A stretch of 64,000 nt of DNA, from the NCBI GenBank assembly GCA_017510925.1, contig JAFWLT010000004.1, positions 1 through 64,000 of the forward strand. The letters run 5' to 3'. This DNA comes from Candidatus Saccharimonadota bacterium (GTDB lineage: Bacteria; Patescibacteriota; Saccharimonadia; Saccharimonadales; Saccharimonadaceae). Position 1 is the first letter of the stretch; every line of letters begins with the position of its first letter. The position numbers and the translations under genes were made by a program. Below the pieces are notes generated by a model. That model searched no databases, had not been told where the DNA came from, and saw only the letters and a program-made list of their open reading frames with translations. Below, piece after piece: positions 7,376-59,653 of this stretch.

Positions 7376-7391
7376 ACCACCTTTCGGTGGT
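7376..7391. terminator. Bidirectional terminator
   Basis: The hairpin ACCACC-TTTC-GGTGGT is followed by CTTTT on the plus strand and by a run of six T on the minus strand. It can end the tRNA-Ile transcript and the convergent small gene at 7408-7611. Confidence 0.8.
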
Positions 7392-7407
7392 CTTTTGCAT
7401 TTGAAAT

Positions 7408-7611
7408 TTATTTCTTCTTAAGAGTGAGGAACCCATTGCGTGGATTTTCACAAACTTTGCGATCTGCAGGAAGATCACAAGGAGTACCCTTGCCACCATC
7501 AGCGTTCTTAGTGAAGAAGTAGATAGTTTGTTGCTTGCCACCACGAAGAGTTACTTCTGATTTGCGTAGATAGTATTTTACACCTTTACCGTTGGTATGT
7601 TCGTAAGCCAT
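7408..7611 (-). CDS. Small conserved basic protein, unknown function
   Basis: A 67-residue soluble protein (MAYEHTNGKGVKYYLRKSEV...) rich in Lys, Gly and aromatic residues with two cysteines. Proteins of this look recur in Saccharibacteria, as far as I recall, but I know no function. Expression signals are strong: TTGACA (7668-7673), 17 bp, TAAGAT (7645-7650), a further TATAAT at 7634-7639, then AAGGAGG placed about 8 nt before the ATG. A hairpin terminator follows. Unlike most promoter-proximal genes here it has a true leader with Shine-Dalgarno sequence, suggesting high expression. A nucleic-acid-binding or ribosome-associated role is possible but unsupported. Confidence 0.8.
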   Translation of the reverse strand: MAYEHTNGKGVKYYLRKSEVTLRGGKQQTIYFFTKNADGGKGTPCDLPADRKVCENPRNGFLTLKKK

Positions 7612-7688
7612 TAAGCTTTCCTCCTTAAAGTTATTATATTCTTATCTTATGACCCCGAGAATAAAATGTCAAGAGGTTTTTTAAGCAA

Positions 7689-8408
7689 TTATATAAACAA
7701 CAGAGATAATCTAAGTACTACCCAGATTGCAAATCTAATAAAAATTACAACAGTCACTACTACTGTAATTATGATCAGCCACCCCAAAAAAGATGGTGTC
7801 CAAATTGGCGAAGCATAGTTATGGCGAAAAAGTTCTGTAGAAGGAAGCGCTGCAATAATCGTATCTTGAATATTAGCTGCTGATGGATATTTATTGATCT
7901 CTGTCACCATACAATTAATAAAATTGGCGTTATCCCAAGTCCAACCATTTTGAATAGCAAGTGCCTTACAAGTATTACCAGCTAGCCCGTAAATATTCCC
8001 GTTTGGATTACTGTCACCAGTCATCTTTGCCTCAGCATCTTTCAAAGCCGTTTCGGCAGCTCTAAGATACTGGTGTTCAAGATAAAACGGTCCTGTACCA
8101 AACGAAACCACCTGTTCCCCATTTTCTTCCACTACATTTACTACCGTATTAGAAAATACAAATTCTTTTAATTTTGCTAAGCCAGAGGCTATCGCTGCAT
8201 CATCATTTGCTTCATCAGCAGCTAGCACTGCATCTCTAAGCTCAGACATTTTTACGTGGTTTAACCTAAGAATTGTTGCATCTGCAAAAAACAAAATTAC
8301 TAAAAGAATCAAAAGCATCCAGGTTTTAATTCTACCTTTTTTAAACCTAGAAAAAGTCTGTTTAACTTCCCCGTGCAATTTTTTCAGTTTACCACCCACA
8401 TTATCCAT
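7689..8408 (-). CDS. Membrane protein with two transmembrane helices and an extracytoplasmic domain
   Basis: A 239-residue protein: a basic cytoplasmic N-terminus, a transmembrane helix (about 28-48), an extracytoplasmic domain of about 150 residues with two cysteines (NTCKAL and INCMVT) that could form a disulfide, and a C-terminal transmembrane helix (about 207-235). No family recognised. TGGTATAAT (8415-8420) ends 6 nt before the ATG, so the transcript is probably leaderless. It lies 24 nt downstream of the FtsB-like gene on the same strand and may act with it in envelope or division functions; that link rests only on adjacency. Confidence 0.72.
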   Translation of the reverse strand: MDNVGGKLKKLHGEVKQTFSRFKKGRIKTWMLLILLVILFFADATILRLNHVKMSELRDAVLAADEANDDAAIASGLAKLKEFVFSNTVVNVVEENGEQVVSFGTGPFYLEHQYLRAAETALKDAEAKMTGDSNPNGNIYGLAGNTCKALAIQNGWTWDNANFINCMVTEINKYPSAANIQDTIIAALPSTELFRHNYASPIWTPSFLGWLIIITVVVTVVIFIRFAIWVVLRLSLLFI

Positions 8409-18323: not shown

Positions 18324-21300
18324 TTATTTAGCAACACAACGGACGTGGATGCCGTGTTCATATGTAAGCGTGGCAGCATAAGTACCATAGCCTTGGTTAT
18401 TTAGAAAACCATCGGAAGGTTTGTATATCAAAGTTTTACGAGCATTACCACCCTCAGCAGTACTACTCCACCAGCCACCATAGCCATTATAGCTACTAGG
18501 AATAGAACCATTATAATATACACCACCAGAACCAGCCACTGCATTAAATGCAGCAACATACGTAGTAGTATCATTACCAATAGTAGACACTATCGTACTC
18601 GATGGCAATGTCCAACCCACAGGGCAAATATTATATACATCGTTATTAGTGTTAGAGCTACCAGTAATAGTGCCTACTGTAACTGCTGGATAGTTGTAAT
18701 ATGCGCCATAAGTAGAACTACAGGTCATATATGGTTCAGTATATGTAGCTCCATTCGAAAGTGAAGCTGTAGGTGTAGACCAATTGGAGCTCACATTAGA
18801 ATCAGCACTAGTCAAAAGTTTGGAAGAAATATTAGAACCATAAGTAGCGCCAGTACCATCACATCCAATAGCAAGATTTCTAGTCATCCAAAGGTTCCCA
18901 TTGAGTTTAGCTGTAGTATATTCCTGACCATCGCGAGCATCAATAAGGGTTTTAGTATCACCATCACTCATTTTGGCTGCAATCTGTGGATTCATCTGCT
19001 GCATATAAGTGATATCATCAACCGTCCGGTTATCATCCTTGACACACCGTACGGTAAACCCATATATGCGCTGACTCTTATTCAATGGATCTACCGAAGA
19101 AGTGCCAACGTATAAATCATACATATAAGGCGCATTGCCATAAAATGTGGATGACGGGAACCAGCCCCAGCTATTTTGGAAATATATTGTATTTGCTTGA
19201 TAATAACCGGAAAGCGTTGTAGATAATGCTGCTTTAAGGTTAGCTTGGTTAGACCCATATGCTGCATAAAGCCCCTGATATTCTCCACTTGCACCACCAG
19301 ATGGGATTCGCCAGCCAGCCGGACAAATATCTTCAGTGGCATCGGTAAGCCCAGAAGCCGACGAAGAATAACAATACGAGGCAGCCGACGTAGCGCAGAA
19401 ATTATAATACACGCCTACTTTGCCATTGCCAGAACCATAATTAGTCACTGAAGTATTCCTATAAGCAGTATTAATCTTTGGAGTATCAAATGAATCTGCC
19501 CAAGAAGTGCTGACATTAGCTTTGAGCGAGGTCAAATGCGCATCTGTTGCATTGGTAGTAGCAGATGTCAAATTTGTTTGAACATTGGTATCTGTAAGAT
19601 CTAAAGCTAAATTATCCAACATATATATATTGCCATCAGCAAGTTTGGAAACCTTATAATTGTTGCCATCACGACTATCTTTGAGCATAGCCGTATCACC
19701 AGTGTTTGGCATTAAGCTGTCTAGTTCACTTTGCGAGATATTTTGCATTACTGGAACGTCTTCGTAGCTCTTGATACAACGTACAGAGAACCCATCACCA
19801 CGGCCATCAGAGTTAGTCGCAACAGTTGTTGTGCTTCCATTATATTGTATGATATAACGACCCTCCACAGTGGACGCGACGGAAGACCAATAAATCCCAT
19901 AGGTATTATAGTAATTTCCACCGGCATAGTAGCCACCCTTGTATGGGCTAAACGAACCTGCGTTGTTGGCAGCACTCGTTGCTTCTGCATCAGTTGGCAA
20001 CCTCCAACCTTTAGGGCAAACGCTTGCCTCAGCTTTAGTCGTATTTGAGGAGCCTGTAATAGTGCCTGCAGAAGCTGCAACGTAATTATATAACGCGCCA
20101 TAGGAAGCACAGGTTATATAGTCATTGTTGTAAGAATTGTCTCTACCTGCAAGCGTGGTGGTGGAAGTCGTATAATCAGTAGATACGTTGGAATCTGCGC
20201 TGGTAAGAGTTTTAGCAGAATAACCAGAGCCATAGGTGCTACCAACACCGTCACAGCCAATTGCTAGATTTCTGATCATCCAAACGTTGCCATCACTGAG
20301 TTTTCTTACAGTATACACCTGCCCGTCGCGCTCATCTTCTAGACTCCTGATTGCGTTTGTAGCCATCGTAGCAGCATCTTGGCTAGAGAATTTTTGCATA
20401 GTCTGGCGCATTACGCAGCGAGTGTTATAACCTGCTGCACGATAGCCACCACTATTTACAGTAAAGGTATCTCTATACCAACCAATTGGGCGATAAATAG
20501 TATCACCTGTGCTAGAAGCCCAATAACCTGCGCTAGATTCTGGCACCTTTAGAACGTGATCATTAATGTGGCCACCCCATACTGGTTCAAATACTGACAC
20601 AGTTGAACCGGCATATGAGATCAAATTGCTATATTGAGTGCTGGTTGGGAGTTTCCACCCTTTAGGACAGATACTTTCTGTGGCTTCAGCATTGCCAGAA
20701 GCACCTGCGATAGTACCAGCTGTAACAGCAGCAAAATTATACCAAGCATTAGGTCTACCACTATTATAGCTATCGCTGGCCTTATAATATATACAAGTGT
20801 TCGTATAACCAGCGCCACTAGTACTACTATTATTACCATCGCATTCACCACTAGCAGACATTAGATCTTTATATGTCATCGTACGAGTGGTAGTAACATC
20901 AGAATCATTTGGATTTAAAGTAGTGCCCTGGAAAACCAGATTTTGGGTCATCCAACATTCGCCATTTATCCACCTTACTGTGTATTCATTGCCATCACGA
21001 GAATCTCTGAGCGTATAATTCCCTGACGCTGCACGCGTTCTACACATTTCTGGAGTAAAGGATTGCATAGTGTCTCCCATCTCCCAGATAGCATATAGTT
21101 CTGCAGTAGCAGTACCAGTAGATGGAATGGAAGTAAAGGTAAAGGTATCACCAGACTGGTAAGTAGTGCCAGTACAAGTAGATGGATTGGTAGTATGGTC
21201 TATAGTACCATAGCACCAGCCTTTAAATATAGCACCAGATCTAGTTGGGTTAGTTGCTGAGATAATGAATTCTGATGCAGTAATGTTAGACTGTGCGTCT

Positions 21301-22019
21301 TGTTCTAGTACAGTAGCAGTACCATCATAGTTGTCTATATAGTCTATTTGGTATGAAATAGGATTACCAACAGCAGTAAGTACAAAGGTATTAGTATAAG
21401 TACCAGTTTGTTTCTCGTAGTCTACTCTAGCACCAAGGGCAAGAGTGAAGTTGTCTGATGTGCCAGTGGTATTTGGTGCGTTGGTAGAATAGATGGTTTT
21501 AGCAGTAGATGTAGTAGGAGCTGCCATAAAGTCTGTAGTAGTAGTGTTATTGACGTTTAGTCTATAACCCCATTTGTTAGCATAGGTGGAAGCACTACCT
21601 GTTCTGAAGTCAGATTCTGTAGTGTTGGATGTAATAGTATCTAGAGTATCTCCTGTGATGTTGTTTACTAGTTGGCCTGATGTGTCTGATCCTAGTAGTG
21701 TTACACTATAGCCTGTGAGGTTGTCTGTGGTAACTGAGAATTCTGCTTGGTCTGCTGCAGCTGAGATAGCAAAGGTACCATCCTTTGAGGTTGGTGTGAT
21801 ATCTACTGAAGCTGTGTCTTTTGATGAGATGATGGAGAGTGAAGTAGTGGCAGGAACGGTTGTAGCTTCGGCGTCCTCTCTATGTTTAGCAATAGGAAAT
21901 ACAGCAAGAAGAGTAAGAATAGCAAGGAGTGAAAAAGCTCCCGTACTTACAATACGAAATCTCCTAGAGCGAGATATTACACGCTCTGTACCACTGTTTG
22001 TTTTCCCGTTAAAAAACAT
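18324..22019 (-). CDS. Giant secreted protein with InlB-type repeat and four FISUMP domains
   Basis: A 1231-residue surface or secreted protein. A long signal/anchor region (hydrophobic core about 28-45) is followed by an N-terminal beta domain to about 221. Then comes an InlB/Listeria-Bacteroides-type repeat with FKGWCYG and LYAIWE (about 225-320). Four FISUMP domains (Fibrobacter succinogenes major paralogous type) follow, each with R-D-G-x-x-Y-x-V, NLWMTRNL-like, ICP-x-GW-x-LP, Y/W-W-S-S and a final VRCV motif. Their last halves differ strongly in Tyr, Ser, Asn and Gly content, as expected of a ligand-binding face. No C-terminal anchor. The first 663 bp are nearly identical to those of the paralogue at 56360-59653. 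A -10 TATAAT and -35 TTGCGC precede it; no strong ribosome-binding site. Confidence 0.85.
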   Translation of the reverse strand: MFFNGKTNSGTERVISRSRRFRIVSTGAFSLLAILTLLAVFPIAKHREDAEATTVPATTSLSIISSKDTASVDITPTSKDGTFAISAAADQAEFSVTTDNLTGYSVTLLGSDTSGQLVNNITGDTLDTITSNTTESDFRTGSASTYANKWGYRLNVNNTTTTDFMAAPTTSTAKTIYSTNAPNTTGTSDNFTLALGARVDYEKQTGTYTNTFVLTAVGNPISYQIDYIDNYDGTATVLEQDAQSNITASEFIISATNPTRSGAIFKGWCYGTIDHTTNPSTCTGTTYQSGDTFTFTSIPSTGTATAELYAIWEMGDTMQSFTPEMCRTRAASGNYTLRDSRDGNEYTVRWINGECWMTQNLVFQGTTLNPNDSDVTTTRTMTYKDLMSASGECDGNNSSTSGAGYTNTCIYYKASDSYNSGRPNAWYNFAAVTAGTIAGASGNAEATESICPKGWKLPTSTQYSNLISYAGSTVSVFEPVWGGHINDHVLKVPESSAGYWASSTGDTIYRPIGWYRDTFTVNSGGYRAAGYNTRCVMRQTMQKFSSQDAATMATNAIRSLEDERDGQVYTVRKLSDGNVWMIRNLAIGCDGVGSTYGSGYSAKTLTSADSNVSTDYTTSTTTLAGRDNSYNNDYITCASYGALYNYVAASAGTITGSSNTTKAEASVCPKGWRLPTDAEATSAANNAGSFSPYKGGYYAGGNYYNTYGIYWSSVASTVEGRYIIQYNGSTTTVATNSDGRGDGFSVRCIKSYEDVPVMQNISQSELDSLMPNTGDTAMLKDSRDGNNYKVSKLADGNIYMLDNLALDLTDTNVQTNLTSATTNATDAHLTSLKANVSTSWADSFDTPKINTAYRNTSVTNYGSGNGKVGVYYNFCATSAASYCYSSSASGLTDATEDICPAGWRIPSGGASGEYQGLYAAYGSNQANLKAALSTTLSGYYQANTIYFQNSWGWFPSSTFYGNAPYMYDLYVGTSSVDPLNKSQRIYGFTVRCVKDDNRTVDDITYMQQMNPQIAAKMSDGDTKTLIDARDGQEYTTAKLNGNLWMTRNLAIGCDGTGATYGSNISSKLLTSADSNVSSNWSTPTASLSNGATYTEPYMTCSSTYGAYYNYPAVTVGTITGSSNTNNDVYNICPVGWTLPSSTIVSTIGNDTTTYVAAFNAVAGSGGVYYNGSIPSSYNGYGGWWSSTAEGGNARKTLIYKPSDGFLNNQGYGTYAATLTYEHGIHVRCVAK
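21357..22019 (-). repeat. 5' module shared with the second FISUMP gene (copy 1)
   Basis: The first 221 codons are the same length as, and almost identical to, those at 58991-59653: two amino-acid differences (Asn/Thr in TITSxTTESDF and Ser/Asn in TTxTAKTI) and a modest number of silent changes. Homology drops sharply just downstream. This suggests recent duplication or gene conversion of the secretion module. Confidence 0.9.
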
Positions 22020-56269: not shown

Positions 56270-56345
56270 GGCCCGGTAGCTCAATGGATAGAGCAATTCC
56301 GTCCTAAGGAAGAGGTTGTGCGTTCGACTCGCACCCGGGTCACCA
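56270..56345 (+). tRNA. tRNA-Arg (anticodon CCT)
   Basis: Acceptor GGCCCGG/CCGGGTC with one G:U pair, anticodon stem-loop ATTCC-GTCCTAA-GGAAG, encoded ACCA. A TGATATAAT lies at 56242-56249 within the start region of the divergent foldase gene. The 3' end faces the end of the second giant FISUMP gene, 14 nt away. Confidence 0.94.
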
Positions 56346-56359
56346 TTTTTTATGCTAAT

Positions 56360-59300
56360 TTAGCGCGCAATACAACGGACCGGGAAACCTAACCTATGAC
56401 TACCATTGCCAGCTGAATAGACGACCGATGGACTAAAACCTAGGTCGGAGGCACTCGTAGACGAAGTTACAGTAGACACCCAATAAGTACCATAGCTACC
56501 TCCACTAGTAAAGGCGCTATTATTATATGTACCAGTAAGCAAGAAATTAGGGGTAGTACCTGGACCAGCATTAGTATAAAAAGTTGCTGCACTTTCAGAA
56601 TAACTGCTCTCTAAGTTAGCTCCATAAGCTGTAGCGAGTTTATAAAGATCACCTGTCTTCCAGTTAGGACTAGTCCGAGGATTAGCATTACTGGTAGTAG
56701 CCGTCGGAAGCCTCCACTCCTTAGGACAGATAGAATAAGCTGCATTGTACCCATTGCTGGTTACAACCGTCCCAGCAGAGTTCTTGCCTCCAACTGTAGC
56801 AGCGAGCCAAGAATAGTATGAGTTGCACGGATGATTAGCGTAACAATCAGCTTGGTCCGTAGTTTCGTTGCCGGAGTTATAGACATAAGCTACGGTGTCC
56901 GATGAGAAGCCAGTGCTACTAGATGCCGGAAGAGTATAGTACCCATCAGTAGGTACATCAGAAGTAGCAGCGTTAAGCACGGTGCCACCAGCTAGGTTGA
57001 GATCTGAAGTCATCCATAATTGCCCATCAAGAAGTTTAGCTACAGTATAATCTTTGTTGTCACGAGCATCTTTGAGAGTGTAAGTAACTTCAGGCGTCGT
57101 ATTAGCTACAATTTGTGGATTTATCTGCTGCATATAAGTGATATCATCAACAGTCCGGTTATCGTCTTTAACACAACGAACGGACCACCCGTAGCGCCGA
57201 TAGCTATGGATCGCCGAAAACACGCTCGAACTAGTGAAGTACAAACCGTAGGCGTAAGTAGAAGAGTAGGAAGACGAAGACCAATAGTAGCCGTCCGTCC
57301 CACCATATTTGAACGTACTGGAGAGATAGCGGCCAGCGAGCAAGAAATTAGGGAGCGTACCTGGGCCTGCGTTGTTGTAAAAGACTGCAGAGTTTTGGTA
57401 AGATTGGCTTTCTAGATTTGCACCATAAGTGGTAGCGAGCTTATAAAAATCACCTTTCTTGTAACCGGTGGTTGAAGTAGCGCTAAAGTCATCCTGGTTA
57501 CCAGACTTTGGTAGTTTCCAACCTTTTGGACAGATGGAATAAGGTGCATCCTCGCCATTGCCAGTGACGGCATTGCCTGAGGCATCTTTTCCACCAGCCG
57601 TAGCAGCAAGCCAAGAGTAGTAAGAGTTGCAAGGTTGAGAGCTAGTACAATTAGTAGTTTCATTGCCAGTATTATAAACAAAGGCTTTAGTATCGTCATC
57701 AAAACCAGTAGTAGACGAAGCTGGAAGTGTATAGTAATTATCCGTCGGTACATTAGAATCACTAGCATTAAGTGTAGTTCCACCAGCAAGGTTAAGGTTA
57801 CTTGTCATCCATACATTCCCATCAGCTAGTTTAGCCACTGTATATTTTTTGCCGTCACGCTCATCTTCTAGGATCTTGCTTTCTCCTACTGCCATCGCAT
57901 CAGCATCTTGGCTAGAGAAGTTCTGCATGGTCTCTCTCATCACACAACGGACGGAAAAGCCGTAGTACCGACCGCTACTGAGCGCCGAATACACGGACAA
58001 ACTACTGAAGTACAAACGGTAGGCGTTAGTAGAAGAGTAGGAAGACGAAGACCAATAGTAGCCGTTCGACCCACCATAGTCGAACGTACTGGAGATATAG
58101 TAGCCAGCGAGCAAGAAATTAGGGAGCGTACCTGGACCGGCGGTAGTATTAAATGTTGGAGTAGAATCTGGGTTTGCGTAATAACCATTTGGAAGGCTAG
58201 TTACGCCTTTTACGGCTAAAATCATTTTGTAAAAGTCACCACCAGTATAGCCACCACTATCTCTAGGTATACCTTCTGCAGTAACGGTAGGTAATCTCCA
58301 GCCTTTAGGGCAGATAGAATATGCTGCATTATAACCATTGCCAGTGACGGCTGCACCGCGAGCGCTCTTCCCACCAGCTGTAGCAGCTAACCAGGAGTAG
58401 TAGGAGTTGCATGGTTGGGTACTGGTACAATCTGCTTGGTTGGTGGTTTCATTGCCAGTATTGTAGACAAAGGCCTTGGTATCATCATCAAAACCAGTAG
58501 CAGAAGAAGCTGGGAGAGTGTAATAGTTATTTGTAGGTACATCAGAAGTATCAGCATTGAGCACAGTGCCACCAGCAAGGTTGAGATCACTGGTCATCCA
58601 ACATTGGCCATCTGCAAGCTTAGCCACAGTGTACACTTTACCATCACGTTTATCTACTACTTTTCTTGGTGTAGCAGTACAAAGACTTGGATCTAAGTTT
58701 TGGATTTCCGGGAATTCTTCCCACATTGCATAAAGGTTAGCCTCGGCTGTACCAGTGGATGGAATGCTGGTAAAGGTAAAATCATCGCCATTATTATAAA
58801 CTTCTGCTGGAGTACCAGAACAAGCAGTTGGGTTAGCAGAATAATCTGCAGTACCATAGCACCAACCTTTAAATACGGCACCAGCTTTAGTAGGATCTGC
58901 TTGTGAAATAGTAAACTTAGATGCAGTGATATTGGCTTGGCCATCTTCACCAAGTTTATCAGTATCATCCCAGTAGGTGATTTTGTAAGTAATAGGATTA
59001 CCAACAGCAGTAAGTACAAAGGTATTAGTATAAGTACCAGTTTGTTTTTCGTAGTCTACTCTAGCACCTAGAGCAAGGGTGAAGTTGTCTGATGTGCCAG
59101 TGGTGTTTGGTGCGTTGGTAGAATAGATGGTTTTAGCAGTATTGGTTGTAGGAGCTGCCATAAAGTCTGTGGTAGTAGTGTTATTGACGTTTAGTCTGTA
59201 TCCCCATTTGTTAGCATAGGTAGAAGCAGAGCCTGTTCTGAAGTCAGATTCTGTAGTAGTAGATGTAATAGTATCTAGAGTATCTCCTGTGATATTGTTT

Positions 59301-59653
59301 ACTAGTTGGCCTGATGTATCACTACCGAGCAAAGTTACACTATAGCCTGTGAGGTTGTCTGTGGTGACTGAGAATTCTGCTTGGTCTGCTGCAGCTGAGA
59401 TAGCAAAGGTACCATCCTTTGAGGTTGGTGTGATATCTACTGAAGCTGTATCTTTTGATGAGATGATAGAAAGTGAGGTAGTAGCAGGAACGGTTGTAGC
59501 TTCGGCGTCCTCTCTATGTTTAGCAATAGGAAATACAGCAAGGAGAGTGAGAATAGCGAGGAGTGAAAAAGCTCCCGTACTTACAATACGAAATCTCCTA
59601 GAGCGAGATATTACACGCTCTGTACCACTGTTTGTTTTCCCGTTAAAAAACAT
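56360..59653 (-). CDS. Giant secreted protein with InlB-type repeat and three FISUMP domains, two with hypervariable segments
   Basis: A 1097-residue paralogue of the protein at 18324-22019. The signal/anchor and N-terminal domain (1-221) are nearly identical to that protein. An InlB-type repeat (FKGWCYG, LYAMWE) follows, then three FISUMP domains (about 330-570, 571-827, 828-1097) with KDGK/RDGKxYTVAKLADG, WMTSDLNLAGG, SICPKGWRLP and a final (S/P)VRC(V/I). Domains 1 and 2 share a region at 507-554 and 764-811 in which nearly all differences are amino-acid-changing. No C-terminal anchor. The promoter is TTGACA (59701-59706) and TAAAAT with about 18-bp spacing; the -35 lies in the end of the polymerase gene. 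Likely a surface adhesin with a changing ligand site. Confidence 0.87.
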   Translation of the reverse strand: MFFNGKTNSGTERVISRSRRFRIVSTGAFSLLAILTLLAVFPIAKHREDAEATTVPATTSLSIISSKDTASVDITPTSKDGTFAISAAADQAEFSVTTDNLTGYSVTLLGSDTSGQLVNNITGDTLDTITSTTTESDFRTGSASTYANKWGYRLNVNNTTTTDFMAAPTTNTAKTIYSTNAPNTTGTSDNFTLALGARVDYEKQTGTYTNTFVLTAVGNPITYKITYWDDTDKLGEDGQANITASKFTISQADPTKAGAVFKGWCYGTADYSANPTACSGTPAEVYNNGDDFTFTSIPSTGTAEANLYAMWEEFPEIQNLDPSLCTATPRKVVDKRDGKVYTVAKLADGQCWMTSDLNLAGGTVLNADTSDVPTNNYYTLPASSATGFDDDTKAFVYNTGNETTNQADCTSTQPCNSYYSWLAATAGGKSARGAAVTGNGYNAAYSICPKGWRLPTVTAEGIPRDSGGYTGGDFYKMILAVKGVTSLPNGYYANPDSTPTFNTTAGPGTLPNFLLAGYYISSTFDYGGSNGYYWSSSSYSSTNAYRLYFSSLSVYSALSSGRYYGFSVRCVMRETMQNFSSQDADAMAVGESKILEDERDGKKYTVAKLADGNVWMTSNLNLAGGTTLNASDSNVPTDNYYTLPASSTTGFDDDTKAFVYNTGNETTNCTSSQPCNSYYSWLAATAGGKDASGNAVTGNGEDAPYSICPKGWKLPKSGNQDDFSATSTTGYKKGDFYKLATTYGANLESQSYQNSAVFYNNAGPGTLPNFLLAGRYLSSTFKYGGTDGYYWSSSSYSSTYAYGLYFTSSSVFSAIHSYRRYGWSVRCVKDDNRTVDDITYMQQINPQIVANTTPEVTYTLKDARDNKDYTVAKLLDGQLWMTSDLNLAGGTVLNAATSDVPTDGYYTLPASSSTGFSSDTVAYVYNSGNETTDQADCYANHPCNSYYSWLAATVGGKNSAGTVVTSNGYNAAYSICPKEWRLPTATTSNANPRTSPNWKTGDLYKLATAYGANLESSYSESAATFYTNAGPGTTPNFLLTGTYNNSAFTSGGSYGTYWVSTVTSSTSASDLGFSPSVVYSAGNGSHRLGFPVRCIAR
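57191..57364 (-). other. Candidate DGR-like variable region, FISUMP domain 2
   Basis: The 144-bp core (57191-57334, 48 codons) aligns without gaps to 57962-58105 with 21 base differences: 12 at codon position 1, 8 at position 2 and 1 at position 3. The adjoining 30 nt to 57364 are identical to the other copy. Codon pairs such as CGC/TAC, AGC/TCC, CAT/AGT and TAT/GGT fit mutation of AAY template codons. Confidence 0.7.
57962..58135 (-). other. Candidate DGR-like variable region, FISUMP domain 1
   Basis: Partner of 57191-57364. Codons change in 15 of 48 places, 14 of them altering the amino acid, while long stretches between are identical, including 36 nt without a single silent change. Outside this block silent differences return at once on both sides. 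Confidence 0.7.
58991..59653 (-). repeat. 5' module shared with the first FISUMP gene (copy 2)
   Basis: Encodes residues 1-221, equal in length to 21357-22019 and differing by two amino acids plus silent changes. The upstream promoter regions differ, so the shared unit starts close to the start codon; about 14 nt of leader (ACAGGTCATACAAA) are also shared. Confidence 0.9.

Follow-up and report, generated by a model that had tools for sequence, protein, structure and literature searches.

Probable orphan variable repeats of a diversity-generating retroelement in tandem FISUMP domains of a Saccharimonadota surface protein

Two adjacent FISUMP domains encoded by a single gene of a gut Candidatus Saccharimonadota bacterium end in blocks, A and B, that differ from each other in a manner characteristic of a diversity-generating retroelement (DGR); a third such copy, C, lies elsewhere in the genome. 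On the basis of sequence comparison, it is almost certain that all three were written by a DGR copying one template with substitutions at template adenines. As a whole, the explanation we regard as likely is that the blocks are DGR-written variable repeats (VRs) that are now orphan and static, and "orphan DGR variable repeats" is the most fitting name for the locus. The window, meaning the whole stretch of DNA analysed, comprises 64,000 nucleotides (positions 1 to 64,000 of contig JAFWLT010000004.1); its features are collected in Table 1 together with related copies.

Table 1 Features of the locus and of related copies (window positions unless a contig or locus is named)
Feature	Position	Strand	Remarks
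1097-aa protein gene	56360..59653	-	ORF; N-terminal signal/membrane segment; three FISUMP domains in tandem
FISUMP domain 1 (copy A)	57941..58711	-	
FISUMP domain 2 (copy B)	57170..57931	-	
FISUMP domain 3	56369..57160	-	old, decayed VR-like end with many silent differences
Templated tract A	57962..58135	-	58 codons almost without silent differences from copy B; variable block 57962-58105
Templated tract B	57191..57364	-	variable block 57191-57334
Tract common to copies A and C	57945..58307	-	about 120 codons, ends in VR; limits approximate
3′ flank, copy A	57884..57943	-	ordinary coding sequence of next domain; no shared tail
3′ flank, copy B	57113..57172	-	likewise without tail
tRNA-Arg (CCT)	56270..56345	+	immediately downstream of FISUMP gene
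Copy C	G000:C7:21849-22046		end of another FISUMP gene; as fresh as A and B
Copy D	C7:540-737		older
Tail-less VR, G099:C5	L171:1289-1491		203 nt; 23/24 mismatches at A
Tail-less VR, G155:C52	L162:486-675		85% of mismatches at A

The three FISUMP stretches of the protein were recognised by PF09603 (E = 4e-30) and TIGR02145 (E = 9e-40). By Pfam and NCBIfam the VR-bearing domain family is Fib_succ_major, a known DGR target (PMC4159848), and a FISUMP target is also found in the congener G007. A PDB sequence search with the FISUMP domain returned no relative, and the AlphaFold model of domain 2, built from 8 sequences, had a pLDDT of 42, too low to speak for or against a C-type-lectin-like fold with surface-exposed variable residues. 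Judging from the family, the likely role of FISUMP ends is to recognise diverse ligands on surfaces of the host or the environment, and the variable ends would probably give this surface protein several different predicted binding faces in tandem. The window also holds a second multi-FISUMP gene, of 1231 aa (18324-22019).

Aligned without gaps, blocks A and B differ at 21 sites over 47-48 codons: 12 at first, 8 at second and 1 at third codon positions. The residue is changed in 14 codons, while a fifteenth is the two-step Ser/Ser pair TCC/AGC, and none of 17 fourfold-degenerate sites differs. An earlier note on this DNA, made from the letters alone, had given these coordinates and counts, and on recount they proved exact. 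Its description of a block free of silent change also holds, with silent changes in 1 of 42 comparable codons inside the tract versus 58 of 114 upstream (Fisher p = 1.5e-9). The tract is, however, slightly longer than it had stated, beginning at a CCA codon (58135 in A, 57364 in B) and running to 57962 and 57191, respectively.

The window genome (G000; 661,755 bases in 9 contigs, 98.64% complete) was searched by blastn with the block. The earlier note had seen two copies; both were confirmed, but the genome also has the third, equally fresh copy C, as well as the older copy D and decayed copies on contigs C4 and C3. Over 47 codons, A and C differ at 15, 14 and 1 first, second and third positions, and B and C at 15, 12 and 2, which puts the three pairs at 20-29 first- and second-position differences and only 1-2 at third positions. 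Silent differences then rise as an age series across D, domain 3 and the C4 and C3 copies, domain 3 having 32 third-position differences from copy A within the block. The tracts held in common are of unequal length: A and C share some 120 codons, in which there are a single silent difference (besides TCC/AGC) and, outside the VR, three replacements; before these codons they are diverged, and B shares only the VR with either. Compared along its length, gene D has 66% identity to the canonical target of G007, with C-terminal residues in common. The whole genome contains 55 FISUMP stretches; 27 of these are strong (E<=1e-9), the maximum among 36 compared genomes of the genus.

To represent the template, we kept the third positions on which copies A, B and C agree, placed adenine at the first and second positions that vary (e.g. 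...GGCAACTATAACTCCAGTACGTTCAACTATGG...) and searched the congeners with the result. Most strong matches adjoin RVT_1 genes. An RVT_1 match is present in 23 of 35 congeners, and about 20 congeners carry cassettes of reverse transcriptase (RT), template repeat (TR) and FISUMP target, more than 25 in all, in which mostly 82-100% of mismatches fall at TR adenines. The template repeat of G007:C8, 227 nt long and adjacent to the RT, and the C-terminal FISUMP VR differ at 23 sites, 22 of which are A in the template; in G099:C3, one TR serves two targets, with 19/21 and 14/16 mismatches at A. The congener RTs have an IGNLTSQ-type motif and YVDD, and the solved structure nearest to the G007 RT is 8ub7, which we take to be the Bordetella phage DGR RT. 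Relatives found in GTDB contig scans belong to Candidatus Saccharibacteria, several of them from ruminant gut.

Several features of these cassettes were recorded in passing. In 13 of 15 compared cassettes (L068:8104-9583 and 12 others, e.g. L070, L072 and L076), the TR sits immediately 3′ of the RT gene and runs along the other strand, L080 and L084 being the exceptions. The two targets served by the single TR of G099 lie on different contigs (L108:2477-2714, L108:116-353 and L109:7279-7516), and both VRs show the identical two-base difference from the TR near the tail end (IMH against IMH*). Between target and RT, L068 has a 283-aa ORF (7389-8240) with 56% and 33% identity to counterparts in G099 and G068; it matches no Pfam or NCBIfam family and is a possible DGR accessory protein. 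L080:2068-4458 (G012:C31) is a DGR of a different class, with an RT 27% identical to the others and a VR in another protein type (27/28 mismatches at A).

The test of template adenines uses the TRs of relatives, G007 and G099, the window genome's own TR not having been seen. The G007 TR carries A at 30 of the 34 first- and second-position sites that vary among A, B and C, versus 13 of 60 invariant sites (OR 27, p = 2e-10), and the G099 TR gives much the same result (OR 25, p = 6e-10). At the remaining 4 of the 34 sites the template of either relative has a base other than A, which counts against the explanation we favour; in pooled canonical pairs of the genus, about 1% of non-A template sites are changed (45/4502). 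At TR-A columns the window copies have T>G>C (32/22/11), and at TR-A sites of the canonical pairs T and G are about equal, followed by C (237/235/80). With the reservation that the TRs compared are those of relatives, we consider DGR authorship secure because the variable sites fall on the TR adenines of congeners and complete cassettes are so numerous in those congeners. The shared template with mutation at adenines proposed in the earlier note is thereby borne out by independent TRs in a genus rich in FISUMP DGR cassettes. Ordinary positive selection on duplicated domains, combined with gene conversion and involving no retroelement, could yield first- and second-position changes with few silent ones if it acted strongly on very young duplicates. 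It is nonetheless a very improbable account, given the heavy silent divergence upstream in the same domains, the coincidence of variable sites with the TR adenines of other species and the retention of the third base in variable codons.

The machinery itself was not found. Neither RVT_1 (E<=10) nor a profile built from 12 DGR-RT sequences detected an RT in the 9 contigs of G000, which is not closed, while as a positive control the profile detected the RT in G007, G099, G068 and G155. When G000 was queried at the DNA level with block B or the inferred template, VR copies only and no TR came back, and the sequence following the 1097-aa gene holds the tRNA gene in place of RT or TR. The contig ends of G000 showed no RT fragment or broken cassette, only the ends of FISUMP, tuf, dnaK, rpsM and other genes. 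Three of them, C3R (107166), C5R (16823) and C9L (1), fall inside FISUMP genes, and C3R and C5R terminate in the identical 60 bases, from which we conclude that the assembly broke at FISUMP repeats. Scans of viral contigs for the block sequences by pattern gave no match, and a protein scan gave one distant match (31% identity). The RT and TR predicted by the earlier note are thus absent from the assembly in high-sensitivity searches with positive controls. That note had named a complete genome with neither as evidence against its reading; both are lacking here, and since G000 is in 9 contigs with three ends in FISUMP genes, it is not strictly such a genome.

A homing tail is likewise missing. 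In canonical VR/TR pairs of the genus, the tail past the VRC codons extends for 34-79 nt in most cases (138 in one, 28 in another; some alignments truncate it). Close to the end of the tail TR and VR differ at a few sites, the picture expected of IMH/IMH*. No IMH-type tail is common to A, B, C and D: the 3′ flank of A has 19/60 bases identical with B, 12/60 with C and 23/60 with D. Blocks A and B are internal, the next domain following each. Because RT, TR and IMH were all sought and not found, we do not class the locus itself as a DGR.

The internal position of the blocks, the missing 3′ homing tail and the absence of RT and TR from the assembly lead us to an orphan and static reading. In its almost certain first step, a DGR RT copied one AAC-rich TR belonging to the same lineage as those of G007:C8, G099:C3 and G068:C1. 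Template adenines were substituted at random, and FISUMP domain ends at three sites or more (A, B and C) were replaced by the products. Homologous recombination or gene conversion may then have moved these products into FISUMP domains that have no tail, or loss of the tail may have stranded them there; the cassette of the lineage would then have been lost, or lie outside the present assembly. For A and B in particular, we lean towards orphan, static VRs that arose by recombination or tail loss, their cassette lost or unassembled. The unequal tracts, about 120 codons for A and C and the VR alone for B, fit recombination better than a fixed homing boundary, and point to homologous recombination or gene conversion from a VR-bearing sequence in a lineage whose DGR was very recently active. 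Since A, B and C show no silent changes among them, the last templated copying must be recent. This is hard to square with a cassette lost long ago and counts against the reading.

That same freshness, free of silent decay, would be expected if a live DGR with RT, TR and probably a canonical C-terminal target lay in an assembly gap and still rewrote A, B and C, homing without the usual 3′ tail. The nine contigs, the three ends within FISUMP genes and the frequency of RVT_1 matches among congeners leave room for such an element, and in G155 a tail-less tract starts near the 5′ boundary of the TR, as expected from cDNA homing. We nevertheless judge it somewhat unlikely: the assembly is 98.6% complete and yielded no RT, TR or tail-bearing VR, the RT is absent too from many congeners of 96-99% completeness, and A, B, C and D have no tail in common. 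Published surveys, moreover, explain the C-terminal placement of VRs in DGRs by a need for cis elements (PMC8144416). Alternatively, the variant blocks may have been imported by recombination with DNA of DGR-carrying relatives into a lineage that never had a matching DGR. Closely related DGR lineages do exist in the genus, and the A-C tract exceeds the length of a TR copy. At the silent sites that the three copies have in common, however, no sampled relative's TR is a close match (best 82%), so that import needs one unsampled donor used three times, and the resemblance of gene D to the G007 canonical target, including its C-terminal residues, suggests that the lineage once had the system. We therefore regard import as improbable.

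The orphan reading is also favoured by tail-less VRs in two DGR-positive congeners (G099:C5 and G155:C52; Table 1), which derive from each genome's own TR and whose identity to it ends exactly at the stop codon. Upstream of the start of the G155 tract there is ordinary paralogue divergence. Three origins are compatible with these observations: a former target that lost its tail, a recombination event into a gene lacking one, and homing that needs no tail. A more speculative extension, which we rate as rather doubtful, is that the genus archives useful DGR variants by recombination into tail-less FISUMP domains, including tandem internal ones, where they would escape mutagenesis and form a static, growing repertoire. 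If so, the tail-less VRs of G099 and G155 and the RT-less, FISUMP-rich window genome would be stages of archiving. As a separate observation, RT-less congeners were richer in FISUMP domains (medians 8 vs 2, Mann-Whitney p = 0.05, kinship ignored), with p at 0.1-0.2 without the window genome or with near-complete genomes only; we make no claim from it.

DGRs have been studied as machines that continually mutate one C-terminal target. If their products also reside in internal tandem domains and tail-less genes, how good variants are kept becomes testable, and these loci can show whether DGR cDNA homes without an IMH. Some DGR output escapes surveys in which every VR must have an RT beside it; one published study states that its own approach would miss remote targets (PMC8144416).

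Among known systems, the congener cassettes G007:C8, G099:C3 and G068:C1 are closest. Like the window they have a FISUMP target, the VR pattern NFLLAG.Y.SS.F..GG..GYYWSSSS and adenines at the window-variable sites; what sets them apart from the window blocks is the presence of an RT with a neighbouring TR, the C-terminal position of the VR and a 3′ tail common to TR and VR. The prototype, the Bordetella phage BPP-1 DGR, shows the same adenine-directed templated replacement of a VR, but uses RT/Avd, a TR and an IMH 3′ of the VR (PMC12875486), none of which was found for the window blocks. In 2014, Fib_succ_major / DUF1566 domains were described in DGR variable proteins of human microbiomes (PMC4159848), under the Pfam name, a literature search for the word FISUMP with DGR giving no match; those are FISUMP-type targets found as TR-VR pairs, whereas the window has no template. 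Other DGRs are known in which a single ORF carries several VRs (PMC6642488); they resemble the window in having more than one VR per target but have a detectable TR. The precedent for VR genes with neither RT nor TR is Treponema denticola, in which VR-bearing target genes of strains lacking both were read as leftovers of lost DGRs (PMC4891356). Both the targeting of FISUMP by DGRs and the persistence of VR genes once the DGR is gone have thus already been published, and what is new is the internal, tail-less, tandem VRs: in contrast to the Treponema denticola remnants, the window has two internal tandem VRs in one protein, no 3′ tail, and a further copy with a longer, conversion-like tract.
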